This document shows, in pieces, positions 59,265-64,000 of a stretch of 64,000 bases of DNA (positions within the stretch are counted from its first letter, which is position 1; every line of letters starts with the position of its first letter). Source of the stretch: Neorhizobium galegae (lineage in GTDB: Bacteria; Pseudomonadota; Alphaproteobacteria; Rhizobiales; Rhizobiaceae); NCBI RefSeq assembly GCF_017877055.1, contig NZ_JAGIPG010000002.1, forward strand, positions 992,001-1,056,000, given 5' to 3'. The notes under the pieces are model-generated. The model was not told where the DNA came from. It ran no database searches and saw nothing but the letters and a program-made list of their open reading frames with translations. The position numbers and the translations under genes were made by a program.

Positions 59265-59341
59265 CGGAGTGTAGCGCAGTCTGGTAGCGCACCACGTTCG
59301 GGACGTGGGGGTCGAGTGTTCGAATCACTCCACTCCGACCA
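59265..59341 (+). tRNA. tRNA-Pro (anticodon CGG)
   Basis: 77 nt including an encoded CCA. Acceptor stem CGGAGTG/CACTCCG, D-arm around GCGCAGTCTGGTAGCGC, anticodon stem CCACG/CGTGG with loop TTCGGGA (anticodon CGG, reading CCG), and T-arm with GTTCGAATC. The gene is intact, and the adjacent integrase suggests its 3' part is the attachment site of the downstream element. Confidence 0.96.
59318..59341 (+). other. Putative left attachment site (attL) in the tRNA-Pro 3' end
   Basis: The T-loop to CCA end of tRNA-Pro is the usual integration target for tyrosine integrases. The integrase gene begins 70 bp to the right and is oriented toward the tRNA. The matching right repeat is not in this window, so the core size is not known. 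Confidence 0.45.
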
Positions 59342-59409
59342 GCTTGAACGCTTGATCTACGGGCGTTTGGTTATAATCCCGATCCTTCTTCAGATGTTTG
59401 CGGCAATGA

Positions 59410-60534
59410 TTACGGCAACGATTGAGCGGTTTTCCGGCCAGCTCGTCCGCTCGTGAATGCTGCTCCTACGCCTGCCTGGTGGTCTGGGTGGTGATGCCCG
59501 TAGGTCTTCTCTAGGGTCTCAAGGGTCATTCCAAGGTATCCGGACGCTTCCCACTTATCCGTCGCTGCCTGCATTAGCCAAGTTGCCGAGGTGTGCCGGA
59601 GAGTATGACGAACAATGCCATTGGCGTCCTCGCCGAGGGTCTCATCGACGAGGTTGCGGAAGGCTCTCTTCGGATCTACCGGCCCACCGCGGAACTCGAC
59701 AACATATTTGGCGCCTAGGCGGTGCCATCTGCGCATGTGGGCAAGCAGGCGAGCAGGAAGCCTTATAGGAGGAGCCCGCTTATTCGCAGCGACCACCTCG
59801 CCATCCCAAGCCCGGTAGAACACGCCGGCCTCGAGATCGATATAAGGGCGACCCTCTTCCTTGATGAAGGACGCCTGCCAGATACGTGACGAGCGGCTGC
59901 CGGTATAGACTGCGGCCAACGCGAAACGCGCGATATGAATGGTCGGACGCCATTTGTTGGGCTTACCGCGGTAGGTGCTGCGCTTCCGATACGCTGCCCA
60001 AATGAGTTTGGCCAGTGTAGAGCGGTCCAGATGCTTGACGCGACCTTTAGCCTTGGGCGGAAGGGTGACGGTCACCGCTTGCCGCGTCACGTTGTCCGCG
60101 ATGGCCTGACGACATGCGGCCCGCAGATCCTCGAGTTCGCGTCGGCTACCATTCTGGTTGCCTCGCTTCTTCACGTACTCTGCGCATGTGCCACTTGTGA
60201 TATCATCAAGCGTCTTATCGCCCCAGTAGGCGAGCAGGTTCTCAGCGCGCGCGGCCAGTTCCTTCGGCCGAGTGGCAGTGTCGCGCTTGAGCTTAAGATA
60301 ATGCGCGATAACCTCAGCGACCGCTACGTCTCGAGCGGATCGGTCTTTCTTGGTCGGCGCCGCGATGAATTGCCTGGCGATGTGTTCGGCAAGCGCTCTC
60401 TCAGCTCCTTGACGATCAGACGCGCCGCAAGCAGTGCCGAACTGCTTTCCGCCGTCGAGGATGACCCATGTTGCGGCTCGATCCTTGCTGGCTGGTCTAA
60501 GCCAGAGCCGAGCTGGTTTGCGGGCACGCGACAT
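59410..60534 (-). CDS. Tyrosine-type site-specific integrase
   Basis: 374 aa. C-terminal catalytic domain with Arg214 (YTGSRSSR), His310/Arg313 (HTLRH) and the nucleophile Tyr345 (TYGHHHPDH). The position of the second conserved His in the usual LGH is Met (LGM), as in this rhizobial integrase group. An N-terminal SAM-like domain spans about 70-145. It drives integration and excision at the tRNA-Pro site. The 5' 211 bp overlap the excisionase-like gene in another frame. Confidence 0.92.
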   Translation of the reverse strand: MSRARKPARLWLRPASKDRAATWVILDGGKQFGTACGASDRQGAERALAEHIARQFIAAPTKKDRSARDVAVAEVIAHYLKLKRDTATRPKELAARAENLLAYWGDKTLDDITSGTCAEYVKKRGNQNGSRRELEDLRAACRQAIADNVTRQAVTVTLPPKAKGRVKHLDRSTLAKLIWAAYRKRSTYRGKPNKWRPTIHIARFALAAVYTGSRSSRIWQASFIKEEGRPYIDLEAGVFYRAWDGEVVAANKRAPPIRLPARLLAHMRRWHRLGAKYVVEFRGGPVDPKRAFRNLVDETLGEDANGIVRHTLRHTSATWLMQAATDKWEASGYLGMTLETLEKTYGHHHPDHQAGVGAAFTSGRAGRKTAQSLP

Positions 60535-60761
60535 TTCTCTTTCATCTCCTCAATCGATCGCAGGGTCGTAAAGTCTTTGCCGGCGATACGCATGATAGTT
60601 AGTCGGCCACGAGCGGCTTCCTTGCGAAGACCGTTTACGGACATGCCGCCATGCGGAAAGGCGAGGGGGACAGCCTGGGCTAGTCTTACTGGATCGTCAG
60701 GACGATAATTGTCATTTGCAGCCACGGGCCACGCGTACTCGGCCAGAGCCGCGGCGCTCAT
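60324..60761 (-). CDS. Excisionase-like DNA-binding protein
   Basis: 145 aa. A central winged-helix-like segment, MSVNGLRKEAARGRLTIMRIAGKDFTTLRSIEEMKEKC, resembles MerR-type/excisionase proteins found beside integrases of rhizobial islands. The C-terminus is Ser-rich and low complexity (GSSSTAESSSALLAARLIV) and lies entirely within the overlap with the integrase start. Both genes are plausible, so the overlap is likely real. It would steer the integrase toward excision. Confidence 0.72.
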   Translation of the reverse strand: MSAAALAEYAWPVAANDNYRPDDPVRLAQAVPLAFPHGGMSVNGLRKEAARGRLTIMRIAGKDFTTLRSIEEMKEKCRVPANQLGSGLDQPARIEPQHGSSSTAESSSALLAARLIVKELRERLPNTSPGNSSRRRPRKTDPLET

Positions 60762-61079: not shown

Positions 61080-61454
61080 TTAATTGCCCGAGGCTTCATC
61101 AGCCGCAGCCTTGGCTTCGTCGTACTGCGTAATAGCATTCCGGCAGTGGGATTCACTGTATCCAAACTTATCAGCCACGGCGGCAAGCGCTTCTTCATAT
61201 CGCTCGCCTGCCCATCGGCGGTGATAAAATTCTTCTGCTATTTCAAACCAATAAGCCGGCATTGTCCTTCGTCGACCCCGGCCACGCTTGGGCGGGGAAA
61301 GCATTTCAGCCGCTATAGCCTGGACGACATCGTCGGCTTTGCCCGTCTTCAGCAGGTCCACAACCATCCGCTTGGCGTCGTGAACCCGGCCTTCTGACAC
61401 GGCAGATTTGATCGGCGAGGCTTGCAGAGAGAAGCCAGGGGGGAACTTGGCCAT
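61080..61454 (-). CDS. Uncharacterised island protein, possible HTH at the C-terminus
   Basis: 124 aa. The middle is basic (PPKRGRGRRRT), and the C-terminal part (EEALAAVADKFGYSESHCRNAITQYDEA) looks like a helix-turn-helix of the kind that begins many phage-type small regulators. No family could be assigned. It ends 4 bp before the next gene stop... its start is 5 bp downstream of the 61459 gene's stop, so the two are probably cotranscribed. Confidence 0.55.
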   Translation of the reverse strand: MAKFPPGFSLQASPIKSAVSEGRVHDAKRMVVDLLKTGKADDVVQAIAAEMLSPPKRGRGRRRTMPAYWFEIAEEFYHRRWAGERYEEALAAVADKFGYSESHCRNAITQYDEAKAAADEASGN

Positions 61455-61458
61455 TGAT

Positions 61459-61974
61459 CTACCTAATTCTTCGAAAGGCTGTCGTTCTCTGGATCTCGCT
61501 CATGAGGAGAGCAAGTGGCTCGCTATAATCCACCTCGTCATCTGGTGTTTCAACGACATCCCGCCACACCTGAAGTTTGATCACCAGGTCGTCGATGTCC
61601 GTGGCATGGCTCTCGGTGATCCGCACCTGAGTTTCGAAAAACCGACCGCAAACATATTCCACTTCCTGCGAGTCTCGCTCTGTCACGTTGTCCTCCATCG
61701 CAGCTTTGAAGATGCGATAGGAATCAAAGAGAGAACTGATTGGCGTCGCTTGTCGCGCGACCAACCCTTGGCCGAAAATAACCCGGAATGGACGTCCGGC
61801 CGCATCCTCCGGTATCACATAGACACCATAGACTTCGCCGCCGCTACCGGTTCGTTGCCTATCGGCAATGACGGACCGCATCCAGCCCGATCTGTGCTCG
61901 ACCGCTTGGCCGACGGTGAATCTGAATGGCTCTTCGATTGCTTCTGCTGTTTCGATGCTGACGTGCGAGTTCAT
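61459..61974 (-). CDS. Uncharacterised island protein
   Basis: 171 aa from the ATG at 61972-61974 (GGGGA about 5 bases upstream; an ATG four codons earlier lacks a ribosome site). The N-terminal 85 residues form a beta-rich region (FRFTVGQAVEHRSGWMRSVIADR, GGEVYGVYVIPEDAAGRPFRVIFGQGLV), the rest is helical (SSLFDSYRIFKAAMEDN, DIDDLVIKLQVWRDVV). I do not recognise the family. It is divergent from the XRE gene with about 130 bp between the starts, and its operator may include the repeat at 62070. Confidence 0.55.
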   Translation of the reverse strand: MNSHVSIETAEAIEEPFRFTVGQAVEHRSGWMRSVIADRQRTGSGGEVYGVYVIPEDAAGRPFRVIFGQGLVARQATPISSLFDSYRIFKAAMEDNVTERDSQEVEYVCGRFFETQVRITESHATDIDDLVIKLQVWRDVVETPDDEVDYSEPLALLMSEIQRTTAFRRIR

Positions 61975-62069
61975 CGTTGTCCCCATTTTTAAATGATGTC
62001 ATAGTAAAAACATGATTCGGGCAAAGAGTAAACTGAAAAATATGATGTCCGTTCAAAGATCCAGCCTTC

Positions 62070-62452: not shown

Positions 62453-64000
62453 ATGCGCTACAAAAAGTTCAGAATTCGGAACTTCAAGGGAATAAAGGAC
62501 ACCACTGTTAATCTCGGAAACAACAACAATGTTGGGGTTTATACATTTGTAGGCTTAAACGAGAGTGGCAAGACAACTGTCTTGGAAGCAATCCATAGCT
62601 TTTCTCCTGAGTTCGCCACCAGTCGGTTGATCGGAAGCGATGGTGGATCTGGAATACCCTTCACTGAACGCGTTCCTCGCCACCTTATTTCCAACTTTAC
62701 CGGCGATGTCTCCGTCGAAGCGACACTTGTAACCGAGCCGGGGGAAATATCGAAGATTATCAAGGAAATCGAAGCATCCCGGAAAATCATCATCGATGTC
62801 GATTGCCTTCCGAATGAACTGATTTTTGAGCGTATACAGCGCTTCGTGAAAGGCGATTTCCAATCTTCCTACTTCTCTCTCTCTCACGCGCTCCGTGTAA
62901 AATCACCGAAAGAGAAAAAATGGAGGAAGGCTACAACGGAAGAGGTCACTGCCGTCCGTGACATCATTTATGCTCACACCCCGGATATTGCGTATTTTCC
63001 CACCTTTGTATTCGACTTTCCGAAGCAGATCATGCTGACCGGCGCTAGGGGCGGAGCTGTTAACAATTTCTATAAGAAGCTATTCCAAGATATATTAGAC
63101 TTTGACGGTAAGGGACATACGATCGAAGACGATATTCTTCGACGCGTTCGCGAGCCAAGCTTGATCGGCCCGTGGATGCAATTTCTGAGCCTGTGGAATG
63201 GCAAGGATGATCGCGAAAAAATTCAACATGTAATTGACAGAGCAAGTGCGACGGTAACCCAAGTTGTTTTCGGCCGGTGGAATAAGATCTTTCGCGACGA
63301 TGCCGGCAGCAAAGAGGTCCTTATTCTTTGGGAAGTTGTCGAAGGCGAAAAGAGGGACGGGAAAGGAGTTCTGATCAAGACCGAGGAACACGATGTCTCG
63401 ATCAAGTTTCAGATCAAAGACGGCACCAGAAGATTCGACGTTAATGATCGGTCGCTAGGTTTTCGCTGGTTTTTTGCATTCATGCTTTTCACCCAATTTA
63501 GGGTCGCACGAGGATCTGCAAGGCCGATCGTCTTTCTCTTCGATGAACCTGCGTCGAACTTGCATGCTGCAGCACAGCAGAAACTCATTGAAAGTTTTCC
63601 CGAGGTTGCAAGGGGGAATCACAAGCTAATGTATACCACCCATAGCCACTATATGATCGAGCCTAAGTGGCTTGAACAGACGTTTATCGTCACCAACAGA
63701 GCCGATGCGCCTACGGAATCAGTGATTGATGCCATTTCCTTGGACGATGAATCACTTGACATAAAAGTGGCAACTTACCGCGACTTCGTTGACAAAAACC
63801 CCAAAAAAACGAGTTACTTCCAGCCAGTCCTTGATCGACTTGAAGTCGTCCCCTCTCGCCTTGATATCAGTAGATCTTCGATCGTGGTCGAGGGAAAGTC
63901 GGACTACTTCATAATTCAATACGCAGCGAAAATGCATGATGTGAAGGATCTCCCGGTTGTCCCCGGTTTAGGTGCGGGCACGTTAGGGGCCTTGGTGGCG
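62453..64000 (+). CDS. AAA-ATPase/TOPRIM (OLD-family) nuclease, cut by the window edge
   Basis: Open from the ATG at 62453 (GGGAGAG six bases upstream) to the window end: 516 codons, no stop. Walker A GLNESGKTT (residues 34-42), a long helical insertion, signature-like DRSLGFRWFFAFMLF, Walker B IVFLFDEPASNLH (Asp364, Glu365), H-loop YTTHSHYMIE, then a TOPRIM start SSIVVEGKSDYFI with EGKSD at 480-484 and a GLGAGTLG element at the right end. This is the domain order of OLD-family overcoming-lysogenisation-defect nucleases. In mobile elements they often act in phage defence. The gene is more AT-rich than its neighbours. The rest of the gene, and any partner, lies beyond 64000. Confidence 0.85.
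   Translation, partial: MRYKKFRIRNFKGIKDTTVNLGNNNNVGVYTFVGLNESGKTTVLEAIHSFSPEFATSRLIGSDGGSGIPFTERVPRHLISNFTGDVSVEATLVTEPGEISKIIKEIEASRKIIIDVDCLPNELIFERIQRFVKGDFQSSYFSLSHALRVKSPKEKKWRKATTEEVTAVRDIIYAHTPDIAYFPTFVFDFPKQIMLTGARGGAVNNFYKKLFQDILDFDGKGHTIEDDILRRVREPSLIGPWMQFLSLWNGKDDREKIQHVIDRASATVTQVVFGRWNKIFRDDAGSKEVLILWEVVEGEKRDGKGVLIKTEEHDVSIKFQIKDGTRRFDVNDRSLGFRWFFAFMLFTQFRVARGSARPIVFLFDEPASNLHAAAQQKLIESFPEVARGNHKLMYTTHSHYMIEPKWLEQTFIVTNRADAPTESVIDAISLDDESLDIKVATYRDFVDKNPKKTSYFQPVLDRLEVVPSRLDISRSSIVVEGKSDYFIIQYAAKMHDVKDLPVVPGLGAGTLGALVA

Follow-up and report, generated by a model that had tools for sequence, protein, structure and literature searches.

The window analysed here, a 64,000-nucleotide stretch of the Neorhizobium galegae genome, ends inside a gene for a member of the OLD family, in which an N-terminal Rad50/SMC-like ABC ATPase is fused to a C-terminal TOPRIM nuclease domain. 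It is a complete solitary OLD protein carried as cargo by a phage 16-3-type element, and by analogy with characterised relatives it probably serves as a P2 Old-like superinfection-exclusion or abortive-infection device. The initial annotation had described an edge-truncated ATPase-TOPRIM nuclease of likely defence function in an integrated element, and that interpretation is supported overall. The features of the region are listed in Table 1.

Table 1. Features of the tRNA-Pro locus and the nuclease gene (positions in the window).
Feature	Position	Strand	Basis
tRNA-Pro (anticodon CGG), integration site	59265..59341	+	ARAGORN; Rfam tRNA, 64.6 bits
attL core, 47-bp exact direct repeat	59296..59342	+	Repeat search
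Tyrosine integrase	59410..60534	-	PHROG phrog_1, 8e-23; blastn to int/xis of Rhizobium phage 16-3
ORF at the position of phage 16-3 xis	60324..60761	-	Overlaps int in the same way
Small Xre/HTH_3 regulator, 83 aa	62095..62346	+	Pfam HTH_3, 7.4e-7; PHROG regulator matches
OLD-family ABC ATPase-TOPRIM protein	62453..64000 (gene to 64345)	+	ORF calls, Pfam, alignment, profile and Foldseek searches

The frame of the nuclease gene is open up to the window edge, and 345 more bases of the same genome bring it to a stop codon. The truncation was therefore real, and the complete gene (62453-64345; L002:3954-5846) encodes 630 amino acids, the first 516 of which lie in the window. Its GC content is 48.1%, compared with 62.1% for the window, which makes it an AT-rich gene. 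A promoter scan found 0 promoters, fewer than in shuffled sequences.

Both domains are present in the one chain. The ATPase part matched the Pfam families AAA_15 (1.2e-25) and AAA_21 (1e-10), and the Pfam model for OLD-like TOPRIM domains matched residues 473-532 at 0.042, under its cut-off. The TOPRIM residues are E480, D484, D530, D532, E567 and K590. The EGKSD motif lies at residues 480-484, where the initial annotation had placed it, and the DxD pair (D530, D532) and the conserved lysine K590 are encoded beyond the window edge. The catalytic set, which that annotation could follow only as far as the edge, is complete.

These residues are also conserved among relatives. The Walker A lysine (K40 in the window protein), the Walker B DE and the H-loop histidine were found in all 71 aligned relatives, as were the TOPRIM glutamate and aspartate, both aspartates of the DxD and the C-terminal lysine. 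A metal-B-like glutamate is kept in 68 of the 71, and no conserved serine or threonine stands two residues before it in these sequences. All of the conserved residues, the metal-B-like glutamate included, are present in the window protein. In Thermus OLD, the metal-B ligands are D381, S478 and E480 and the basic catalytic residue is R487 (PMC7049728); judged by sequence order, the metal-B-like glutamate and the C-terminal lysine may be the counterparts of the Thermus residues. Between TOPRIM helix 3 and strand 4, all 71 relatives have 5-7 residues and no helical insert, with the ends of these elements taken from structure models of the L016 relative, which is 63% identical to the window protein. 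A stretch of the form SxGFxWFF precedes Walker B where LSGGQ would stand, and we read it as a degenerate ABC signature.

The sample of relatives is biased towards this last feature. Relatives were retrieved by a genome scan with two peptide patterns, one being the SxGFRWFF stretch and the other including the H-loop. The scan gave 133 relatives, the best 80 of which were kept. The alignment holds 71 of the 80, leaving out L033 (split frame), L088 (no complete gene called), L017, L029, L041, L056, L063, L083 and L086. Since 69 of the 71 rows match the SxGF retrieval pattern (21 match the H-loop pattern), the invariance of SxGFRWFF in the alignment proves little. Ten relatives were retrieved without the SxGF pattern; SxGFxWFF is present in all ten and SxGFRWFF in six. 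The split-frame copy, from Sphingomonas glacialis (L033:7001-8897), consists of two overlapping frames of 348 and 290 amino acids and looks broken or mis-sequenced.

Among solved structures, the closest match is Thermus OLD. It ranked first in a profile search (7.2e-10), ahead of the retron and Septu PtuA proteins, UvrA and transporter ATPases; a search of solved structures with the single sequence gave 0 matches. Thermus OLD also ranked first, followed by GajA, in a Foldseek search with the full-length model of the L016 relative. A VIA-align run with the full model tested mainly residues 1-466 and had no 6p74 entry among the 50 matches listed. For this reason, a separate C-terminal model was used. 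Like Thermus scotoductus OLD (Class 1, PDB 6P74), the window protein is the product of a single gene with the ABC ATPase followed by the TOPRIM, possesses the E, D and DxD ligands, lacks the TOPRIM helical insert, and carries a basic residue after the DxD, at a distance of 58 compared with 54 (numbering of PMC7049728). Class 1 proteins have an arginine or a lysine at the catalytic basic position, so the lysine of the window protein fits this class; a degenerate ABC signature is a further Class 1 feature (both PMC7049728). The two proteins differ in length (528 amino acids in Thermus, 630 here) and in a Walker B glutamate of Thermus that is an aspartate here. The metal-B serine of Thermus is not conserved in the window clade, of which the SxGFxWFF stretch before Walker B is typical. 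We considered and dropped the idea that the C-terminus is a mosaic of Class 1 and Class 2, because Class 1 proteins can also carry the lysine (PMC7049728) and Z scores of 10.4 and 8.4 are not far apart.

The family profile aligned to P2 Old with a probability of 96.8% over 166 columns, from Walker B to the DxD (hhalign), and with 71.5% for the C-terminal part alone. P2 Old and the window protein are both solitary, prophage-borne ATPase-TOPRIM proteins, and the Walker B DEP, the EGK and the DxD align. One relative of the window protein lies directly after the portal gene in a phage contig, and P2 old sits in the interval between gpA and the portal gene gpQ (PMC9122126). A tblastn search of the window protein against a phage collection that included P2 gave no match. 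Its best PHROG matches were families 7507 (1.8e-25) and 4747 (8.6e-22), the latter spanning the end of the ATPase and the start of the TOPRIM; neither family has a named function. Other single-gene ATPase-TOPRIM proteins are E. coli YbjD (OldB; 552 amino acids), the plasmid protein IbfA (518 amino acids, likened here by description only) and HEC-04, all with reported anti-phage effects (PMC13261556, PMC12111858). The alignment to YbjD covered only the TOPRIM core (hhalign, 74 columns, 64%, E 6.4e-5). PMC12796447 names OLD clades U1-U11, of which the present clade may be one.

Which defence type the gene belongs to had been left to the sequence to the right of position 64000. Two ORFs on the opposite strand follow there: a convergent ORF of 210 amino acids (64448-65080), which had no PHROG match, and a second ORF (65077-65655) matching a PHROG tail-fibre family (1.5e-16). 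Neither is a helicase or a reverse transcriptase. Gabija was therefore rejected, as the neighbours of the gene are the 83-aa HTH gene and the 210-aa convergent ORF, without a helicase. In contrast to GajA, a Class 2 OLD protein, no GajB-like helicase adjoins the gene or recurs among its relatives, and the window clade is without the TOPRIM helical insert. The retron OLD effectors (Class 3) share the ATPase and TOPRIM modules, but no gene of the size or name of a reverse transcriptase adjoins the nuclease gene, and an Rfam search of the surrounding 8.8 kb at the gathering threshold found no RNA except the tRNA, so a retron was rejected as well. AriA and AriB of PARIS (Class 4) also have ATPase and TOPRIM modules; here both domains are in one chain with no AriB partner gene, which excluded a two-gene PARIS system.

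A fused PARIS-type protein, with AriA joined to an AriB-like TOPRIM, would sense a phage anti-restriction protein and cleave tRNA. Single-gene PARIS fusions exist (PMC9122126), and AriA gave the best PADLOC E-value of the window protein (5.5e-27). The AriA model matched all 71 relatives, and so did the PADLOC Old model. The AriA models PDLC02979 and PDLC02980 are 373 and 304 positions long, compared with 374 and 304 for Pfam AAA_15 and AAA_21, and give similar E-values. They look like these generic ATPase profiles, and we have set the AriA name aside as probably reflecting one of them. The best stretch of the fused AriAB model covers only residues 1-50, and among the 25 of 105 PADLOC-DB models listed, none has a best stretch spanning the whole ATPase and the whole TOPRIM. 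The Pfam search, at E-values up to 1, found no AriB-type domain, which we take to be DUF4435. In the profile search of solved structures, AriA was a poor match (0.038), far behind Thermus OLD. We consider a PARIS fusion highly improbable. Scans with PADLOC-DB may nevertheless call members of this clade AriA, or miss the clade.

The surroundings of the relatives were compared at 81 loci where the gene was called: 79 of the 80 genome loci, the window and one viral contig. With the viral contig set aside, 8 of 74 loci have a gene on the same strand no more than 30 bp upstream, and 6 of 75 have one at that distance downstream. The neighbours up to three genes away number 433; the largest cluster found at more than one locus comprises six of them, and no partner gene recurs. 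In a crude motif check, no neighbour was clearly a GajB or a reverse transcriptase; by eye, the P-loop proteins picked up resemble UvrB, RecG and others. A Pfam scan of 115 of the 141 adjacent proteins of at least 60 amino acids found Mrr_cat in four, ResIII in four, HTH_3 in three, HSDR_N in two and Methylase_S in two, among the 25 of 132 families listed. In a wider scan near the closest loci (109 of 146 proteins, from 17 of the 21 loci), resolvases were found three times, phage integrases twice, T4SS conjugation proteins twice and a phage capsid once, and most of the 25 families listed (of 105) were ordinary chromosomal ones. Both scans took minus-strand proteins without their first residue, in the correct frame. 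As no partner gene recurs, the nuclease is a solitary, Class 1-style OLD protein.

This also bears on the regulator. The HTH gene, which the initial annotation took to be the gene's own repressor, does lie 106 bp upstream on the same strand. It is not a fixed companion, since the three adjacent proteins with HTH_3 (of 115) include the window's own, and we no longer count it as a fixed part of the system. Two distant relatives (L037:2424-9289 and L081:5716-12013) appear to lie between hsdS-like and hsdR-like genes, in L081 overlapped by the upstream gene; they are apparently inside type I restriction operons, going by gene names that we inferred.

The nuclease gene is part of an integrated element at the tRNA-Pro gene. 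The 47-bp repeat matches the 3' part of the tRNA, and a second copy (attR), 100% identical, lies beyond the window at 78124-78170 (G000:C2:1070124-1070170), so that the repeats enclose an insertion of 18.8 kb. Over 1.2 kb, the integrase region shares about 69% nucleotide identity with int/xis of Rhizobium phage 16-3, whose record shows the order of attachment site, int and xis that is also seen in the element. From its position and a partial nucleotide match, we infer that the ORF overlapping the integrase gene encodes the excisionase; it had no Pfam or PHROG match of its own. No PHROG match was found for the two ORFs (61083-61454 and 61462-61986) that separate the integrase region from the HTH gene.

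Counting the own genome, 20 same-genus genomes were searched, and all have the left flank or the tRNA. We determined how far the tRNA match lies from the next conserved block, read from its sequence as a cysN-like ORF, in the own genome (20.96 kb) and in three congeners, G394 (1.85 kb), G397 (4.3 kb) and G407 (49.2 kb). G394 has one attachment copy in the 11.6 kb taken, and because of this single copy we regard it as an empty site; a blast search of the right flank against the short loci of the congeners gave no matches. Together with the integrase and the exact repeats, the empty site confirms the integrated element at tRNA-Pro that had been proposed. In G407, 49 kb separate the same tRNA-Pro from the block (G407:C1:639529-688733), with a second tRNA-like repeat at 686784-686868. 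This is apparently a different, larger insertion, and the tRNA-Pro locus seems to be a hotspot that receives various insertions.

In the subset of element ORFs whose proteins were scanned, we found the integrase, a tail fibre, a weak match to a head-maturation protease (7.1e-6) and an Mrr-like nuclease, and the element looks like a phage remnant. The Mrr-type restriction-endonuclease-like protein (L002:7740-8663, 66239-67162; Pfam Mrr_cat, 1.4e-11) may be a second defence gene. Other cargo includes a DUF4145 protein (L002:14685-15371, 73184-73870; 2e-9) and a pentapeptide-repeat protein (L002:15777-16781, 74276-75280; 5.8e-25). The small size of the element and a late region represented, among the proteins scanned, by only the tail fibre and the weak head-protease match would suit a nuclease gene that is inert cargo of a decaying prophage. 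This we judge very unlikely, as the ORF is full length and its catalytic residues are kept.

The gene is sporadic in related genomes. It occurs in 4 of 394 family genomes (E <=1e-20) and 4 of 385 class genomes (E <=1e-30), the own genome counted in each, or about 1% of the sampled related genomes. None of the seven other same-genus genomes listed carries it, and this sporadic distribution, with the empty site, led us to reject a core housekeeping role, which the initial annotation had considered as the opposing case. In a tree of 78 relatives and the window protein, the relatives carry 12 phylum labels. The window protein groups with nine Pseudomonadota rows from several families (support 99), and a Shinella copy, from the same family as the host, falls outside that group at the next fork (support 96). 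This topology suggests horizontal transfer, of which a tree alone is no proof. The horizontal acquisition that had been proposed is borne out as probable.

Several of the nearest relatives are in phages. On its viral contig, L004 is flanked by an integrase and, on the opposite side, by a head protease and a major head protein, L005 lies downstream of terminase, portal and methylase genes, and L025 adjoins tape-measure and tail-fibre genes. The three contexts are not the same, and the window element offers a further, different one, in keeping with a cargo gene that moves between phages. The context is mobile for some of the relatives, not for all.

Two further roles would separate the protein from phage defence. 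It could maintain DNA, either that of the element (phage recombination or repair) or that of the host, as Cran1 does in Sulfolobales. Rad50/SMC-type ABC heads dominate the structural matches, and Cran1 shows that cell-cycle roles are possible for OLD proteins (PMC12796447). Patchy presence, varied phage contexts and type I restriction loci, together with a GC content below that of the own genome and a mixed gene tree, make this reading improbable. Alternatively, plasmids or other mobile elements could be the main target rather than phages. Distant relatives do occur on plasmids, three of the five looked at being typed as conjugative, and one distant relative adjoins Tni/Mu-type transposition genes. 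Of 52 plasmid records matched, the 40 listed align over just 16-40% of the protein, at an identity of at most 35%, and phage contexts were found among the closest relatives examined. There is thus very little chance that plasmids are the main target.

By analogy with studied OLD proteins, the most likely function is that of an ATP-gated two-metal nuclease in superinfection exclusion or abortive infection. The ATPase part would hold the TOPRIM in check and would detect an effect of another phage's infection. The freed TOPRIM would then cut nucleic acid, either host tRNA or DNA, and this would stop phage production and shield the lysogen against other phages. Killing of recBC cells by P2 Old requires both ATPase and TOPRIM residues (PMC7049728, PMC10568477), and once activated P2 Old is reported to cleave a host tRNA (PMC13261556, citing another paper). 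Defence of the P2 Old type also comprises the exclusion of lambda. GajA is held off by ATP and fired by nucleotide loss (PMC10568477, PMC12796447). In YbjD the TOPRIM is described as dispensable (PMC13261556), and for this reason the nuclease step is the least safe part of the proposal.

A wider reading would make the clade a coherent class of its own: solitary OLD-like proteins of about 600-650 amino acids, with SxGFxWFF before Walker B and a TOPRIM without the insert, found on phages, plasmids and restriction islands in a dozen phyla, and acting as single-gene defences with a trigger unlike the RecBCD guard of P2 Old. We hold this to be unlikely; its odds are lowered by the partly built-in invariance of SxGFRWFF (69 of 71 rows) and by the C-terminal lysine, which is not specific to Class 2. 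The family is a known one, and the window protein is a further member of a widespread, little-studied branch of it. A literature search, mostly outside the subscription literature, found no paper tied to the clade.

Of all parts of the family, the single-gene proteins are the least well understood, and isolated OLD genes are described as poorly understood and rare (PMC13261556). What the present case adds is a mobile carrier with clear boundaries, together with 71 aligned relatives in which the catalytic residues are marked. These allow one to ask whether a solitary OLD protein needs its nuclease, what its trigger is, and whether the RecBCD guard seen in P2 Old extends to other members.
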